From IMG/VR virus record IMGVR_UViG_3300027749_000155, positions 1 to 51,319 of that record: a stretch of 51,319 nt of DNA; one strand, 5' to 3'. This document shows positions 33,257 through 45,764 of this stretch, one piece after another. Each line of letters begins with the position of its first letter. Position 1 is the first letter of the stretch. The notes beneath the pieces were generated by a model. The model was given only the letters and a program-made list of their open reading frames with translations. It was not told the origin of the DNA and did no database searches. The position numbers and the translations under genes are program-made. The DNA comes from a virus.

Positions 33257-33852
33257 TGGCAAATGTATTTGATACAATCATCACTAAAGGCGTTCGTTCT
33301 GGACAGATTCCAGCGCGGACTAAAGAGGCGCGTGATTGGTTTCGTACAACTGCTGGCAAGATCAGTAGCATCAACGAACGATCATTGTTGAACTCTGATA
33401 AAGACAGGCTCCAGAAAGAGCCGTTGCCTGGACAGATGTACATGTTCTATTACGATCCAAAGCACAAAGACACACTGCCATTCTATGACAGATTTCCACT
33501 GATCTTTCCATTCAAGAAGATTCCAGGCGGCTTTCTAGGATTGAATCTGCACTATCTGCCACCACAACTCAGAGCGAAGTTGATGGATGGGCTGTATGAA
33601 TATGCAAACAATAGCAGATATGATGAATCAACCAAACTGAAACTGAACTATGAACTGCTATCTAAAGTGTCAACTCTGAAATATTTCTCTCCATGCATCA
33701 AGCACTACCTGACAAGCCATGTTAGATCAAAGATGATGTATGTGTATCCATCTGAATGGGATATTGCCCTGATGCTTCCTACAGCCAGGTTTGAAAAAGC
33801 AACCACATCACAGGTTTGGGCTGATAGCAAGAAAAAAATCAGACAGATTTAG
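33256..33852 (+). CDS. Conserved T4-like protein coupled to gp4, 198 aa
   Basis: The protein opens FDTIITKGVRSGQIPARTKE and holds MYMFYYDPKHKDTLPFYDRF, PLIFPFKKIPGGFLGLNLHY and LPPQLRAKLMDGLYEY, a pattern conserved beside gp4 in T4-like cyanophages and relatives. The Lys/Arg-rich C-terminus (DSKKKIRQI) may contact DNA. Coupling to gp4 (TAATG overlap) suggests a role in head completion or DNA-end handling. In T4 the neighbour of gene 4 is gene 2 (DNA end protector), so a gp2-type role is possible by synteny, but I see no direct sequence link and give no symbol. Its 3' end overlaps the convergent HNH gene by 14 nt. Confidence 0.8.
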   Translation: MANVFDTIITKGVRSGQIPARTKEARDWFRTTAGKISSINERSLLNSDKDRLQKEPLPGQMYMFYYDPKHKDTLPFYDRFPLIFPFKKIPGGFLGLNLHYLPPQLRAKLMDGLYEYANNSRYDESTKLKLNYELLSKVSTLKYFSPCIKHYLTSHVRSKMMYVYPSEWDIALMLPTARFEKATTSQVWADSKKKIRQI

Positions 33853-34399
33853 GACATTTCTTTTCGTGTCTGGTTATGTTTGATACATTTGATACCATAT
33901 CACAATAACTGCATTTTCTTCTATTGTTTTTTATTATTTCCGAGTGTTTTTTGCGACCTTCTTCATTAAACCGTAAAACATTCGCTTCTCTCAGTTTTTG
34001 TTTTGTTTCATCCGTTCTTTCGTATTTTCCTATATTACCTTTATCTGATTTTGGTTTACGCAGTGCTTGTTTATGTTTTTCTGTTTTTGGTTTACACATT
34101 TTATCAGCACTCGCTTTAATTCTTGGATCTGATTTTGTTAATCCTTTATTCCAAGGAATTCTTCCTATATTTTTTTTACCTAATTTTTTTCCATTTTTTA
34201 CATATATTTCTTTTAATATTTCTTCTTTATCAATTTGTCCAGATAATCCTTTCCAAGCGAGATAATCTTCTTTTCTTTCATGTTGTTCATAAAGCATTCT
34301 ATGCGCTTCTGCATGTTCTTCAACACTCAATTCAATAAGATTATCTGTGTCGTCTGTGCCGCCCATATGCTTGGGAATAATATGATGTTTATGAATCAT
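33839..34399 (-). CDS. HNH homing endonuclease with NUMOD3 and zinc-finger motifs, 186 aa
   Basis: The N-terminus carries the HNH active site (HKHHIIPKHMGGTDDTDNLI, ELSVEEHAEAHRMLYEQH). Residues ~80-155 contain NUMOD3-type DNA-binding repeats (GRIPWNKGLTKSDPRI, KPKTEKHKQALRKP, RTDETKQKLREANVLR). The C-terminus is a C2H2-like zinc finger (CSYCDMVSNVSNITRHEKKC). The layout is that of free-standing phage homing endonucleases. It sits opposite the flanking late genes, overlaps the gp4-partner gene by 14 nt, has AAGG 9 nt before its ATG, and has its own minus-strand TATAAATA. The composition (poly-T runs on the plus strand) is more AT-rich than the flanking virion genes, consistent with recent transfer. 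Confidence 0.9.
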   Translation of the reverse strand: MIHKHHIIPKHMGGTDDTDNLIELSVEEHAEAHRMLYEQHERKEDYLAWKGLSGQIDKEEILKEIYVKNGKKLGKKNIGRIPWNKGLTKSDPRIKASADKMCKPKTEKHKQALRKPKSDKGNIGKYERTDETKQKLREANVLRFNEEGRKKHSEIIKNNRRKCSYCDMVSNVSNITRHEKKCPKSV

Positions 34400-39629: not shown

Positions 39630-40219
39630 TCATCACCTGTAAATATGTCTCTCATGATCTGTTTACACTTTGCAGTGTCATAACGAAAGAACGGTTTATA
39701 TTTAATGCACTTCTTATATATTGATGGCCAGATAATCGTTTCAGTGATTGTCTTGTTCCAATGTGGAAAGAACTTGCATATGTCATTCAAAATGATCAGT
39801 GTTTCAATACTGATCTGTTTCTGTAAGTATAACTTCAATGCATGTGGTCTCTGCCCACTCTTTACTATAAAGTTTTCATTGAAGTTTGTCAATAGTTTAT
39901 TGCAGTCTTCAGTAAAGATATATGTAATAGCCTGCTGCCGCTTAAGCCAGTCTGAATATACAACATCCGCTTTATCAGTTGCTAGATCACCAGCATAAGA
40001 AATAGAATTGCCAACAAAGTTAGCCAGCATAAAGTTTTTCGAGTCTTTATGTCTGGCTATTTTGTAAAAGAAGTTGGCATCTCTTCTCTGTTTAAAGACA
40101 TCTTGTGTGATATTTTTTGTATTACCATTATTTTTAATATAATCATAATTGGTCTCAAAGTGTGCCTTAAGAGCAACGAATGTCTTGTAAGTCTCAAAGG
40201 GAGTCATAGCAACTCTCAT
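39626..40219 (-). CDS. 59: DNA helicase loader gp59-like
   Basis: The chain MTPFETYKTFVALKAHFETN, YDYIKNNGNTKNITQDVFKQ, RRDANFFYKIARHKDSKNFM matches the gp59 pattern in T4-like cyanophages, including the two-domain all-helical organisation. T4 gp59 is 217 residues; this is 197. It loads the gp41 helicase on gp32-coated DNA, and the genes for its partners gp32 and gp33 lie next to it, as in T4. The first ATG (40219) overlaps gp33 by 4 nt; a second ATG at 40207 starts MTPFETY, where relatives begin, and is equally plausible. Confidence 0.88.
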   Translation of the reverse strand: MRVAMTPFETYKTFVALKAHFETNYDYIKNNGNTKNITQDVFKQRRDANFFYKIARHKDSKNFMLANFVGNSISYAGDLATDKADVVYSDWLKRQQAITYIFTEDCNKLLTNFNENFIVKSGQRPHALKLYLQKQISIETLIILNDICKFFPHWNKTITETIIWPSIYKKCIKYKPFFRYDTAKCKQIMRDIFTGDE

Positions 40220-40461
40220 CCGAAGTTCAGTTTAGCCCGCTTTGGCAAATAGTTAAGACTCTCATACTCAGACTCTAGTTGAGCCTTCATCTTAAGATTT
40301 TGCTTGATTATTGTGGCTGCGCTTTCGACTTCAATGTTGTTGATGTTGCAATAATGAATGACCGCATCAACATAGTTAAGTTTATGTTGTGCAATCAGAT
40401 TTTCAATATCGGCTGTAAACTTTTCACTCGATAGAGCCTTTTCTAGTACGATTTCTTCCAT
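40216..40461 (-). CDS. 33: Late transcription co-activator gp33-like
   Basis: 81 residues (T4 gp33 is 112), highly helical, with the C-terminal KMKAQLESEYESLNYLPKRA typical of gp33 from T4-like marine phages, the region that contacts the RNA-polymerase flap. gp33 couples the gp55 sigma factor and the sliding clamp to late promoters. Its presence agrees with the many TATAAATA elements here. It opens the 33-59-methyltransferase-32 operon and has AGAAGG upstream, somewhat far (11 nt) from the ATG. No gp55 gene is in the window. Confidence 0.86.
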   Translation of the reverse strand: MEEIVLEKALSSEKFTADIENLIAQHKLNYVDAVIHYCNINNIEVESAATIIKQNLKMKAQLESEYESLNYLPKRAKLNFG

Positions 40462-40555: not shown

Positions 40556-40581
40556 TCTAACACTTGCAAGGAGTATCAGCA

Positions 40582-41211
40582 ATGAGTATTTATGTCTATT
40601 ATGTGTATGCTTATCTTAGAAAAGATAACACGCCTTATTATATCGGTAAAGGTAAAAACAAAAGAGCATATTCAAACGAGCATAGAGTAAATCTTCCTTC
40701 TGAAAAAGAACGAATCATAATAATGGAAAGAAATCTTTCAGAACTTGGCGCTCTTGCGTTAGAAAGAAGATATATTCGTTGGTATGGAAGAAAAGATAAT
40801 AACACTGGAATATTAAGAAATATGACAGACGGTGGAGAAACTGCTGCCGGAAGAACACCTTGGAATAAAGGAAAGACGGGGTTGAAAGGTCATCCTTGTT
40901 CTGAAAAAACAAAACAAAAACTCAAAGAATCTCGTTTAGGAAAACCAAGGCCTAAAGATGTTATTGAGAAAATGAAAAAAACTAAAACAGGAGTGCCAAA
41001 TCCATCAGCACGAAGACCTATGTCACAAGAAACAAAGAACAAAATAAAAGATAAAAGAAAACTACAGACAATACCGCCGAGAACAGATTTTCATAAGAAA
41101 GCCATAAGTGATTTTCAAAAACAAAATAAAAATGTGTGTGCTAAATGTGGCAAAGGTTTTAATCCAGGAAACTACAGACAACACATCACATCAAATAAAT
41201 GTTCTTTATGA
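40582..41211 (+). CDS. GIY-YIG homing endonuclease with NUMOD3 repeats and zinc finger, 209 aa
   Basis: The GIY-YIG core is [20 protein letters not shown] with the following catalytic helix ([15 protein letters not shown], Arg and Glu conserved) and the Asn/Asp-rich end LRNMTDGGE. Residues ~97-175 hold NUMOD3 motifs (TPWNKGKTGLKGHP, EKTKQKLKESRLGKP, QETKNKIKDKRKL). The C-terminus is a CxxC...H...C finger (VCAKCGKGFNPGNYRQHITS). The frame extends six codons to a TTG, but ATG 40582 follows AAGGAG by 8 nt. Placed between gp33 and the SleB gene with its own late promoter and hairpin, and overlapping the convergent SleB stop by 6 nt. It is paralogous to the gene at 42117. Confidence 0.92.
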   Translation: MSIYVYYVYAYLRKDNTPYYIGKGKNKRAYSNEHRVNLPSEKERIIIMERNLSELGALALERRYIRWYGRKDNNTGILRNMTDGGETAAGRTPWNKGKTGLKGHPCSEKTKQKLKESRLGKPRPKDVIEKMKKTKTGVPNPSARRPMSQETKNKIKDKRKLQTIPPRTDFHKKAISDFQKQNKNVCAKCGKGFNPGNYRQHITSNKCSL

Positions 41212-42116: not shown

Positions 42117-42677
42117 ATGTTTATTTATTACGTCTATGCCTATGTCAGAAAATCTGATGGAACGCCTTACTATATTGGTAAAGGAAAAGGCAACAGAGCA
42201 TATTCACCACAACATAATGTGTCTGTTCCCAAAGACAAATCAAAGATCATATTCTTAGAAACGAACTTATCAGATATTGGTGCATGTGCATTAGAGCGTA
42301 GATATATCCGTTGGTATGGACGAAAAGATTTAAGTTCTGGAATATTGTATAACAAAACTGATGGAGGAGATGGTGTGTCCGGGTGGATTCCATCGATTAA
42401 ACATAGACATCAGTCGTCTATTCGTTTGTTAGGAAATCAACTTGCAAAAAATACTGTATATACAGAAGATATGTGTAAAGCGAGATCGATTCGTGCCACA
42501 GGCAATCAAAATGCCAAAGGTAGCAAAAGTAAAACAGGTCAAAAGTTATCCGAATCTACTAAACAACTTATTGGAACAAAACGCATTGGTGCCATTTGGT
42601 GGACTAATGGCTATATCAACAAAGTAGTAAAAGACTGCCCCGGACCTGATTGGACTCGAGGCAGAACCCTTACATAG
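42117..42677 (+). CDS. GIY-YIG homing endonuclease, 186 aa
   Basis: The core [20 protein letters not shown] and [20 protein letters not shown], then [10 protein letters not shown], parallel the first GIY-YIG protein. The downstream part differs: one NUMOD-like segment ([20 protein letters not shown]) and a terminal [20 protein letters not shown] module that is common at the end of phage GIY-YIG enzymes, in place of a zinc finger. The two genes therefore share a 5' half and diverge in the DNA-recognition half, as expected when homing enzymes change target site. It overlaps the convergent metallophosphoesterase stop by 8 nt. Confidence 0.9.
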
Positions 42678-43336: not shown

Positions 43337-43464
43337 AGAAGAACACACCACTAACACCCGATTGTGCAGCACAATACGGAGCGACCGCATTCAAACACAA
43401 TCACCGTATCCCCTGTTAGTTGGGTAGGAAGCGACTCCTGTTTCCTTTGGTAGTGTGTTCATCT
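43337..43464 (-). ncRNA. Candidate structured RNA of unknown class, ~128 nt
   Basis: The ends pair in a ~14-bp helix with one mismatch (AGATGAACACACTAC with GTGGTGTGTTCTTCT). Inside, in order on the minus strand, are a hairpin AGGAA...TTCCT, a helix CTAACA with TGTTAG enclosing ATACGG with CCGTAT, and a hairpin TTGTG-CTG-CACAA. The result is a closed multibranch of four helices. It follows the 49-residue ORF and precedes the metallophosphoesterase promoter, in the transcript that starts at the tmRNA promoters. No U-run follows, so it is not a simple terminator. I do not recognise the class. Confidence 0.55.
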
Positions 43465-43471
43465 AAAAAGG

Positions 43472-43621
43472 TTATCGACACGTCTCTCGGACATCATCTA
43501 TAAACTCTTGACATTCGGCTTCAGTTACAGGAAACTGACTTTGGAAATCATATTTAAAAATATTTTTGAATACCGTTAAAAAGCGTTCCCATAGTTCTGG
43601 ATTTGTTTCAGAGCAACTCAT
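43472..43621 (-). CDS. Small hypothetical protein, 49 aa
   Basis: ATG at 43621 with AGAGG 6 nt upstream, stop TAA at 43472. The protein reads MSCSETNPELWERFLTVFKN, IFKYDFQSQFPVTEAECQEF and ends DDVRETCR. It is acidic, probably helical, with three Cys. It starts about 20 nt after the 3' hairpin of the tmRNA coding piece and would be translated from read-through of the tmRNA transcript. No family is recognised. Good ribosome site and ordinary codon use make it a likely real gene. Confidence 0.7.
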   Translation of the reverse strand: MSCSETNPELWERFLTVFKNIFKYDFQSQFPVTEAECQEFIDDVRETCR

Positions 43622-43640
43622 TAATGCCTCTTGTGAAAAT

Positions 43641-43990
43641 AGGTGGTGGGATTATTTGATACGGTTCCCACCTGACCGCAGACTTATTGCTTAAGCAGCG
43701 ATTTTCATCGCGGAATAAGGAACGTTGTCGTTAGATGCAGTAATAGCATTTACGTTTTTTGAACTAATTGTCGGTCGTATCTTACCGGAAACCTACTCTT
43801 CGTCGCCATTGCGTATCGAAACTATTCGCCCCCATCATAAACACACCATCCTTATTCTTTATTCCTTGCGGGTCCTCTATATGGGGATAATCTCGGGAAA
43901 GAGATTGGTTTTACCCTGATGTGCTTATGGTGGAGGCGACGGGATTCGCACCCGTGTCTACGCCAACTTTGATCCTGTATCAACAGTTTC
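43641..43990 (-). ncRNA. ssrA: Circularly permuted (two-piece) tmRNA gene
   Basis: On the minus strand the acceptor piece comes first (~43990-43928). It ends in CGCCTCC-ACCA with a T-arm ACGGG-TGCGAAT-CCCGT. A ~94-nt intervening segment with a hairpin (AATCTC/GAGATT) follows. The coding piece begins at 43833 with GGGGGCG, which pairs with CGCCTCC as a 7-bp acceptor stem (one G-U). TACGC in the coding piece pairs with GCGTA in the acceptor piece (helix P2). A tag frame of up to 22 codons (43759-43694, KNVNAITASNDNVPYSAMKI then AA) ends at TAA 43693-43691. The exact resume codon is uncertain. A hairpin GGTGGG/CCCACC near 43645-43672 closes the coding piece. tmRNA rescues stalled ribosomes and tags products for proteolysis. 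Confidence 0.85.
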
Positions 43991-43996
43991 AATCTC

Positions 43997-44004
43997 TATT
44001 TATA
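43997..44004 (-). promoter_or_regulatory. Late promoter for tmRNA
   Basis: TATAAATA on the minus strand, just upstream of the acceptor piece and overlapping the predicted initiation region of the early promoter at 44009-44037. Confidence 0.7.
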
Positions 44005-44008
44005 TCTT

Positions 44009-44037
44009 ACCATACCACGTCTGGTTTAATAAGTCAA
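44009..44037 (-). promoter_or_regulatory. Early sigma70-type promoter for tmRNA
   Basis: TTGACT (44037-44032), 17-bp spacer, TATGGT (44014-44009). The -35 element overlaps the stop of the polynucleotide kinase gene. Confidence 0.85.
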
Positions 44038-44534
44038 GCAAAATCTTCGTATTTGTCATGAAACATAAAAGAGTCAATACCCTCTTCATAGGATGGAGTT
44101 TCATAACTAAACATCATTGAACCAATAACATGCGAAGGAATCGTCTTGCCTTCACGAGCAGTAAGGAACTCTTTCCACTTTGCGTTATCGTAGAAATGCG
44201 TTTCAAAGACCTCAGCAGAAATGAAGTAGTCTTTTGCCTTTGCCATATCAATGATACGCTTACGGCTCTTTACAGTGAGATTGGTCCGATCAACAACGAT
44301 CTTTTCATTAAGATCAATCGCTTTCTGAAGTTCTTGCCAGAAAAGTTTATCAGCAATCTTAATGCTGTCGTTAAAGACCTCATCATAAGTTTTGCCAGCA
44401 TCCTTGGCAATCTCTTCCAGGATCGCATCAGACGAATGCAACCGATAATCACCGTAAAGGCGAGTAATAAACTCTTTCACATAATAAGACTTTCCAGAAG
44501 CGGGAAGCCCTACCAACAATACTAAAATAGACAT
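44034..44534 (-). CDS. Polynucleotide kinase-like P-loop protein (kinase domain only), 166 aa
   Basis: The P-loop is LVLLVGLPASGKSYYVKEFI at the N-terminus. DYRLHSSDAILEEIA supplies the Asp expected for the 5'-OH acceptor site, and KIVVDRTNLTVKSRKRIIDM is the lid/Arg region typical of T4 PseT-type kinases. T4 Pnkp is 301 residues with a C-terminal 3'-phosphatase; this protein ends after the kinase. I use the ATG at 44534, which overlaps the RNA ligase stop (TAATG); the frame extends eight codons further into the ligase gene. With the ligase it forms an RNA-repair pair. Confidence 0.88.
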   Translation of the reverse strand: MSILVLLVGLPASGKSYYVKEFITRLYGDYRLHSSDAILEEIAKDAGKTYDEVFNDSIKIADKLFWQELQKAIDLNEKIVVDRTNLTVKSRKRIIDMAKAKDYFISAEVFETHFYDNAKWKEFLTAREGKTIPSHVIGSMMFSYETPSYEEGIDSFMFHDKYEDFA

Positions 44535-45754
44535 TACCGATACATCCCAACAAACCACTGTTCTTGCAACTTAGCATAATTACTGTTGCTGTTAATGTTC
44601 TTCCGAACTATTTGCTCGATAGCCTTGCGAGTGTTATACATGGTGTTATCATCCCAAATGGCAAAGATCAAGGCTTTGTCCATTGAATGCGTTATCGTCG
44701 CTTTGATCGCAAAGTCTTTCTTGGTCCAATTAAGTTTCTTACGTTCCGCAACAAACTGAACCGCAGTTCTGGCTAAGTTTTCCATAGCCTCAACGATTTT
44801 AGTCTCAAACACATTCAAAGAATCCAAATCTTCTTTTGACAAGAAACCTTTGACATCATCCAAAGTGTTATCGAGGATCATGGCAACAACGTGACGATCT
44901 TGAAGAATCTTTTCCTTAGCCTTATGGATTTGAACATACCACTCAGTCTTGATCTTAAGCATTTGCCCATTGTCAAACCGAATGACATAGCCTTCAAAGT
45001 CTTTTTGCTCACGAGCAACTTCCATGAAGGACTCTAATCCAAACACAGTTCCAAAATTCTCAACAACAGGAATATCCCAATGTTCAGTTGCGCTAACCAG
45101 ACCTTCATATGTAAAGTATGCGCCAGTCTTTATGAACCTAATACCAGTCAAGACAAGTTGGTCTTCTGGATAATCAAGAACGATCTGTTGCTTACGCGAA
45201 CACCATTCAAAGATAAGAGTAACGCCTTGATTACACCAAATACGAGCAAACTCGTTATAATGAGGATTAAGAGCAACAAACTCTTCAACCTGTTTAGCCA
45301 CATCAGTAGCGCCCATCTTAGTATGCCATTCGATCTTATCCAGCATAACAGGAGTGATCATAGAGCCGTCCAACTTGTCTAAGATAACGTGTGGATCAGC
45401 CATCTTAAAGTTGCCAGGCAACGTCTCCTCACGCTCACCGACGTTAAAGAACTTGTGGTACTTGCGAGCAAGAATGTAACCAGTCTTTGAACAGAAAGTA
45501 ATGCCTCGGCATTCGCGGCGGATCAAATCTTCTTTGGTAAGTTTACCAGAACCAAACGTATCAGCCTTCGATACCACATAGTTAATGACGGTATAATCGC
45601 CCTTATCAACTACGATAAACTCATCACAGCCTTCGATTGCAGGAAGCACGTCACTGATGTTTTCGATATACGGAAACCCAGAACGAGTTTTGTGTTTTTC
45701 CCACATACGATCGAGACGTGCTTGCATCTCAGGAGTCAGTTCTTCTTCATTCAT
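44534..45754 (-). CDS. T4 RNA ligase 1-like protein, 406 aa
   Basis: The nucleotidyltransferase motif I is VILDKLDGSMITP (Lys near residue 130). Motif III-like TLIFEWCSRKQQIVLDYPED, motif IV FEGYVIRFDNGQ and motif V MLKIKTEWYVQIHK follow at normal spacing. The upstream RRECRGITFCSKTGYILARK (motif Ia/RG region) and the helical C-terminal ~130 residues match the Rnl1 family (T4 Rnl1, 374 residues), which reseals tRNAs broken by host anticodon nucleases. The TTG two codons earlier is ignored in favour of ATG 45754, which has GAGGA 7 nt upstream. Coupled to the kinase gene, with the tmRNA next. Confidence 0.92.
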   Translation of the reverse strand: MNEEELTPEMQARLDRMWEKHKTRSGFPYIENISDVLPAIEGCDEFIVVDKGDYTVINYVVSKADTFGSGKLTKEDLIRRECRGITFCSKTGYILARKYHKFFNVGEREETLPGNFKMADPHVILDKLDGSMITPVMLDKIEWHTKMGATDVAKQVEEFVALNPHYNEFARIWCNQGVTLIFEWCSRKQQIVLDYPEDQLVLTGIRFIKTGAYFTYEGLVSATEHWDIPVVENFGTVFGLESFMEVAREQKDFEGYVIRFDNGQMLKIKTEWYVQIHKAKEKILQDRHVVAMILDNTLDDVKGFLSKEDLDSLNVFETKIVEAMENLARTAVQFVAERKKLNWTKKDFAIKATITHSMDKALIFAIWDDNTMYNTRKAIEQIVRKNINSNSNYAKLQEQWFVGMYR

Positions 45755-45764
45755 AATCAATCCT

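Follow-up and report, generated by a model that had tools for sequence, protein, structure and literature searches.

A circularly permuted tmRNA gene behind a T4-type late promoter box in a T4-like phage

Judged from its sequence, the minus strand of a virus record of 51,319 bases (a fragment, analysed in full and called the window below) carries at about 43991-43645 an intact circularly permuted alpha-type tmRNA gene of a phage, with an exact TATAAATA box of the T4 late promoter type just upstream. We consider it likely that a T4-like phage carries here a complete permuted tmRNA, expressed as a late gene, which rescues ribosomes via the SmpB of the host. Comparison with other viral and bacterial genes suggests that many viral permuted tmRNAs sit under a T4-type late promoter and are without the bacterial 5' element, and this evidence is what the analysis adds. 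There is a reasonable probability that a phage-specific class of two-piece tmRNA occurs in many T4-like phages whose hosts are alphaproteobacteria or neighbouring groups. In this class, a late promoter that starts transcription at the 5' end of the RNA would replace the bacterial promoter and 5' element; trans-translation would then be a late function that outlives the host ssrA. This differs from the proposal for the tmRNA of Methylophilales phage Melnitz, which assigns it an early role. If true, the placement under the late switch would give this RNA a dated and testable role, namely ribosome rescue in the virion-building phase as the host chromosome is lost.

A phage-borne permuted tmRNA has already been published for Melnitz (PMC9004378; MZ577097.1; this and the other papers given by PMC number are cited from extracts). 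In a survey of the January 2021 database, the two-piece form accounted for 53 of 133 distinct phage tmRNA structures (PMC9004378), and the tmRNA database holds 79 phage sequences of all forms (PMC11915505). Two-piece tmRNA in phages is already known, and the window gene is a further example. The literature searched on phage and permuted tmRNA, which lies mostly outside the subscription journals and is represented by extracts, yielded no report of late-promoter control of a phage tmRNA.

The initial annotation of the window had claimed a circularly permuted tmRNA on a T4-like phage. An Rfam cmscan of the whole window bears out the RNA: RF04321 (tmRNA_permuted) matched at 43990-43691 (-) over the full model (1-213) and scored 96.2 bits (E 1.7e-17), where the gathering score is 47. 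RF01849 (alpha_tmRNA), the model that the annotation had proposed for a check, gave a significant match at 44041-43642 (-) that is barely over the cut-off (51.1 bits vs 50), and all five pairs of the 5' hairpin of this model are non-standard in the window sequence. ARAGORN, proposed for the same check, reported no tmRNA gene anywhere in the window and so missed this one. Folding of the 365-nt stretch beats 100 of 100 dinucleotide shuffles (z -4.1). The coordinates, the part order and the 94-nt spacer given by the annotation were all correct from the sequence; it was silent on the TATAAATA box at 44004-43997 and on the 3' pseudoknot. Table 1 lists the features of the gene and its surroundings.

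Table 1. Features of the permuted tmRNA gene and of its surroundings, in window positions.
Feature	Position	Strand	Basis or remark
Late-transcription co-activator (phrog_254, gp33-like)	40219..40461	-	E 1.8e-14
3' H-type pseudoknot, stems of 6 and 7 pairs	43645..43680	-	sequence and shuffles
Coding piece through tag stop, including stem-loop and tag	43691..43833	-	cmscan alignment
Tag frame, AITASNDNVPYSAMKIAA-stop	43691..43747	-	stop TAA 43693-43691
Acceptor 5' strand GGGGGCG	43833-43827	-	sequence, cmscan
Spacer (IVS), 94 nt, expected to be excised	43834..43927	-	sequence
Acceptor piece (tRNA-like 3' half)	43928..43991	-	cmscan alignment and sequence
Acceptor 3' strand CGCCTCC (43938-43932) and encoded ACCA (43931-43928), together CGCCTCCACCA	43938-43928	-	sequence
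T arm	43955-43939	-	cmscan alignment and sequence
Inner P2 strand GCGTA	43963-43959	-	partner TACGC 43815-43811
Outer P2 strand GAAAC	43990-43986	-	partner GTTTC 43792-43788
TATAAATA, T4-type late promoter box	43997..44004	-	ends 6 nt before tmRNA model start
Sigma70-like TTGACT-17-TATGGT, TG before second hexamer, possible second promoter	44009..44037	-	9/12 consensus matches
Polynucleotide-kinase-like P-loop gene, directly upstream of tmRNA	44034..44558	-	phrog_505 E 2.8e-12, AAA_33 E 3.2e-14
T4 RnlA-like RNA ligase	44534..45760	-	phrog_562 E 4.9e-70, PF09511 E 1.4e-32

The acceptor stem GGGGGCG/CGCCTCC is paired at seven of seven positions, with G.U as the third pair. The resume codon is predicted from its context to be GCU at 43747-43745, which follows GUAAAU. 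In the pseudoknot, TGCGGT (43680-43675) pairs with ACCGTA (43665-43660) in stem one and GGTGGGA (43672-43666) with TCCCACC (43651-43645) in stem two, and 0 of 300 dinucleotide shuffles reached its score. The D-side linker falls one base short of the consensus, and some pairs of the model are non-standard in the cmscan alignment, including three of the middle P2 segment.

The tag of the window gene, AITASNDNVPYSAMKIAA, has 18 residues, with extra residues preceding the NDN, and its frame ends in NDNVPYSAMKIAA-stop as the annotation had read it. Tags could be parsed in 70 of 98 viral and 37 of 57 bacterial genes of the sets described below. Among the parsed viral tags, 43 have 13 or 14 residues and 13 have 9 residues, and many run ANDN. 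An IAA end was found in 3 of 70 viral tags, that of the window among them, and in 4 of 37 bacterial tags; R at position -4 occurs in 12 of 70 viral tags and 1 of 37 bacterial tags, while K at -4 occurs in 1 of 70 (the window itself) and 0 of 37. ClpX reads the last three residues of the tag and ClpA additionally the residue before them, and a basic residue at -4 might disfavour ClpA. By these counts the 'KIAA' end is only mildly unusual, its rarity being confined to the K at -4. The suggestion that a distinctive tag could change which protease clears tagged proteins is therefore weak, with the IAA end shared by other tags and the terminal AA intact.

To judge whether the structure is maintained, P2 pairing was compared in 98 distinct viral genes, window included, against shuffles that ignore relatedness; the acceptor stem was required by the searches and filters that built the gene sets. 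All 98 genes retain the first inner P2 pair (shuffle maximum 94), and 84 of 98 retain the third (shuffle maximum 79). The second is kept in 97 of 98 genes as TA (46), AT (32), CG (18) or GC (1), where the shuffles average 45 and reach at most 56, so that the P2 covariation in relatives on which the initial annotation had let its claim depend is present. The fourth and fifth inner pairs did not exceed their shuffle maxima in these 98 genes.

The gene families of the window agree with the claimed carrier. We call the phage T4-like because of its structural families (baseplate wedge, tail tube, head closure and DNA end protector), its replication families (single-strand-binding protein and the helicase loader T4 Gp59), a late-promoter regulator and the RnlA-like ligase. 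Neither gp55 nor gp45 was found among the 36 reading frames of the 51-kb fragment scanned against PHROGs, and the fragment shows no SmpB gene. By RnlA and a baseplate protein, the nearest named phages include Caulobacter phage Cr30 and the Sinorhizobium phiM12 group, at about 36-42% identity; Ruegeria phages are also among the nearest by RnlA, within the same range. From Cr30, phiM12 and DSS3P8 as nearest phages, the host is probably an alphaproteobacterium. Naming the host through the T arm failed: the exact 28-mer had no match in a collection of genome contigs, and the 27 stretches obtained with a looser pattern came mostly from Elusimicrobia and other distant bacteria. RnlA relatives were found in three IMG/VR contigs at 42-45% identity, whereas the PNK-like protein, used as a query against IMG/VR, returned no relative there. 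These two neighbours prompted the idea of an RNA-repair link, in which the phage would mend or join the two RNA pieces. This idea was not supported and was dropped because the tmRNA lies far from RnlA in DSS3P8, RHph_I1_18 and the IMG/VR contig G002. In Cr30, RnlA is followed by an ATPase gene, yet there is no RF04321 match. The window also holds three homing-endonuclease-like genes, at 33839-34399 (-), 40564-41211 (+) and 42117-42677 (+), each with its own TATAAATA box upstream.

The T4 late box starts at -13 (PMC2988020). If the first base of the window box is likewise placed at -13, the predicted tmRNA start is 43991, the first base of the acceptor piece. With respect to T4-type late genes, the window thus has TATAAATA at predicted -13 to -6 and a gp33-like gene, and gp55 and gp45 were not seen in the fragment. 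The window contains 12 exact TATAAATA boxes where 3.5 are expected, and 0 of 100 shuffles reached 12; with one mismatch allowed the motif is not enriched (94 seen vs 86 expected). Eleven of the 12 boxes end at most 110 nt from a same-strand gene start, compared with 5.4% of random sites, where the gene starts are a list that we chose from the open reading frames with the tmRNA counted as one gene, and the twelfth lies 129 nt upstream of the same-strand start of the endolysin gene. In a flipped-orientation control, 5 of the 12 boxes were also near a start under the 110-nt limit.

The late promoters of T4 and the NATAAATA promoters of phage S-PM2 consist of 8 bases roughly one turn of the helix upstream of the start, with no conservation at -35, and the window box with its predicted start resembles them in this. 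They were described for late genes that encode proteins, structural proteins among them, while the gene behind the window box is an RNA gene (PMC2988020, PMC2984593). The late promoters of S-PM2 use NATAAATA (PMC2984593), and in T4 the first position is A instead of T in nine late promoters (PMC2988020).

The surroundings of permuted tmRNA genes were then compared in viruses and bacteria. Of 13 records scored with RF04321, seven exceeded its cut-off (Melnitz, RcSimone-Hastad, DSS3P8, phiCbK, RHph_I1_18, Gurke and contig G002), and Cr30, phiM12, B23, Atu_ph07 and two shorter IMG/VR contigs did not. In IMG/VR, each of three pattern scans for tmRNA gave at least 120 matches; permuted tmRNA genes are therefore common in viral contigs. 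From the rescanned loci of the first set we obtained 110 genes, 99 of them distinct and one of these bacterial, which left 98 viral genes after a structural filter, with the window, Melnitz, RcSimone-Hastad and phiCbK among them. DSS3P8, RHph_I1_18, Gurke and G002, found with the Rfam model, failed the filter and are outside the counts. Two later sets came from 120 listed matches per scan, of which 63 distinct new genes (with another acceptor sequence) and 88 (with short spacers) passed the filter; for these the motif rule was unchanged and the filter was slightly altered in flank length and spacer range. Among the alphaproteobacterial genomes sampled, 174 of 190 were over the RF04321 cut-off. 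The bacterial set consists of 57 of 76 loci that passed, the 76 being the 30 best-scoring of the 190, 40 others picked mostly from small genomes, and 6 more.

In the first set, 70 of 98 viral genes have NATAAATA at a distance of 40-95 nt upstream of the acceptor strand, 56 of them as exact TATAAATA; in two windows further upstream it occurs in 1 of 98 and 0 of 98. The 40-95 nt range and the N of NATAAATA were picked after viewing this set, and the two later sets alone are a clean test: here NATAAATA was present in 27 of 63 genes (control windows 2 and 1) and in 44 of 88 (control windows 0 and 2), for a total over the three sets of matches listed of 141 of 249. The alphaproteobacterial permuted ssrA (RF01849) resembles the window gene in part order, in the G.U acceptor pair and in the NDN of the tag. 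It differs in that NATAAATA preceded the RNA in 0 of 57 genes, including 0 of 23 low-GC ones, and in that the 5' element CTATG-N(3-4)-AT-N-AA is present in 34 of 57 bacterial genes vs 1 of 249 viral genes. It is this sequence element that separates the two groups; loss of the 5' hairpin as such was rejected as the difference, a generic stem search failing to separate viral from bacterial genes. Before the RNA, TATATT occurs in 19 of 57 bacterial vs 10 of 98 viral genes, and TATAAT in 9 of 57 vs 16 of 98.

The box is not a mere copied flank, because the 40 nt preceding it have a median pairwise identity of only 0.30 in 68 genes; 45 of these 68 flanks are distinct at the 60% level. Distinct flanks were counted in place of single-linkage clusters of the RNA, which chained 77 of 98 genes into one group even at the strictest level. 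Over the rest of the viral stretches the enrichment of TATAAATA is only mild (60 vs 41 expected in motif loci, 38 vs 28 in the others), as judged by dinucleotide expectation, a reversed-motif control being invalid since ATAAATAT overlaps TATAAATAT. As a sign of T4 ancestry, gp23 was looked for in 50 of 54 IMG/VR motif contigs and in 40 of 40 non-motif contigs and was found in 3 of 50 and 4 of 40 records, most of them short fragments; in records longer than 100 kb it was found in 3 of 3 motif and 2 of 3 non-motif records. Few of the comparison contigs are thereby shown to be of T4 ancestry. Spacer length (94 nt in the window against a bacterial median of 27) is not claimed as a phage trait, because viral genes with short spacers are plentiful and a spacer of 80-110 nt was a selection rule for the first viral set.

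Among individual phages, Melnitz is a close parallel: it is a T4-like phage with a permuted alpha-type tmRNA (RF04321, 113.4 bits), and TATAAATA lies 5 nt before the tmRNA model start, as it does at 4 nt in contig G002. It differs from the window in that a glutamine riboswitch follows its tmRNA, whereas the window gene is without an Rfam riboswitch match, and in its tag, ANDNYVPVDYALAA, compared with the 18 residues of the window. Its tmRNA is directly upstream of a transcription co-activator gene (PMC9004378), while that of the window lies behind the RnlA and PNK-like genes. Pelagibacter phage Mosig (MT647606.1) likewise has an annotated SsrA, which adjoins a gene annotated as late promoter transcription accessory; unlike the window it is without TATAAATA before the RNA and seems to keep a host-like 5' hairpin there, as judged by eye (locus L357, 1268-1606). 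It is possible that the Mosig tmRNA is an intermediate between the bacterial and phage types. Exact TATAAATA at that place was found in none of Mosig, RHph_I1_18, DSS3P8, RcSimone-Hastad, phiCbK and Gurke.

The same RNA could instead be an early or constitutive gene, with the sigma70-like TTGACT-17-TATGGT at 44037-44009 (TTGACA-17-TATAAAT in relatives) in use and TATAAATA as a -10 variant. A match of 5-6/6 to TTGACA at sigma70 spacing accompanies 20 of the 56 viral TATAAATA genes vs 2.6% of random positions, and therefore the box may act as a plain -10 in these genes, either instead of or alongside its late role; the other 36 of 56 are without such a -35. In the window, the sigma70-like -10 differs from the box in sequence, and none of the 57 alphaproteobacterial ssrA genes showed NATAAATA at that place. 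A sigma70 -10 should tolerate loss of its first T poorly. Nevertheless, 14 further viral genes keep ATAAATA with this T replaced (A 7, G 6, C 1), a change that T4-type late boxes tolerate, at least for A (PMC2988020). The paper on Melnitz also favours early expression, with the tmRNA following an early promoter and the tagging of host proteins early on as its suggested role (PMC9004378). On balance we regard a purely early or constitutive gene as unlikely. Dual control, with low early transcription from the sigma70-like element and a late burst from TATAAATA, is a serious rival, because overlapping early and late promoters are known in T4-like phages, RB49 being a described case and S-PM2 a proposed one (PMC2984593). 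The window contains both elements, as do the 20 viral genes just mentioned. Against this, the sigma70 element alone is not above chance, as 1 such site was found in 43400-44150 vs 2.2 expected by shuffling, the one site overlapping the end of the PNK-like gene, and some of the S-PM2 genes with such promoters are without a middle profile (PMC2984593). Dual control is thus possible but somewhat doubtful; it shares the late burst with the explanation that we prefer, and the probabilities of the two do not add.

The irregularities of the RNA, namely the short D-side linker and the non-standard model pairs, could also point to a captured host ssrA in decay, or to a decoy that jams host trans-translation like the frameless tmRNA of DS6A, a precedent cited in PMC11915505. 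We find this very improbable: the tag frame, resume context, stop, G.U pair, T arm, inner P2 and pseudoknot are all intact, the window tmRNA has a reading frame where that of DS6A has none, and viral copies are common with P2 kept by compensation.

The preferred explanation, a late-expressed rescue RNA, can be set out along known tmRNA and T4 pathways, from which its timing, processing, charging and benefit are taken, the box, the anatomy and the comparison being read from sequence. When replication begins, the late machinery (the gp33-like protein seen here, with gp55 and gp45 assumed) would open TATAAATA, and transcription would start at, or one or two bases from, the 5' end of the acceptor piece; with such a start there would therefore be no 5' leader to remove. 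Host tRNA-processing enzymes would excise the 94-nt spacer, leaving the acceptor and coding pieces joined by the acceptor stem and P2. The RNA would be charged by the host alanyl-tRNA synthetase through the G.U third acceptor pair and delivered by host SmpB to stalled ribosomes. The ribosome would resume at GCU 43747, append AITASNDNVPYSAMKIAA and exit at UAA, and the tagged product would go to a host protease of the ClpXP type. The phage would benefit in that rescue persists late, after loss of the host DNA and the host ssrA template. The earlier suggestion that the RNA keeps ribosomes recycling while host mRNA is degraded fits this scheme, and late-promoter control would make that role more specific.

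Several further observations were made along the way. A 49-residue reading frame at 43475-43621 (-), without a PHROG or Pfam match, begins 23 nt past the tmRNA pseudoknot and has AGAGG immediately 5' of its ATG; a late tmRNA transcript may run on into it. In two loci (L207 and L254), part of the coding-piece start (GATGGGGGCGAACTAGGAT[TC]GAC) recurs just upstream of the acceptor piece, resembling what a tandem duplication would leave behind; permuted genes could arise from such a duplication. A GOLLD RNA (RF02032) lies within about 0.2 kb of the permuted tmRNA in Roseobacter phage DSS3P8 (L137, 875-1308, 150.7 bits) and within about 0.5 kb of it, on the opposite strand, in Caulobacter phage phiCbK (L138, 2328-2814, 165.3 bits). 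The permuted tmRNA is unannotated in the deposited records of phiCbK (JX163858.1, 104215-104533) and RcSimone-Hastad (MW677525.1, 32190-32477).
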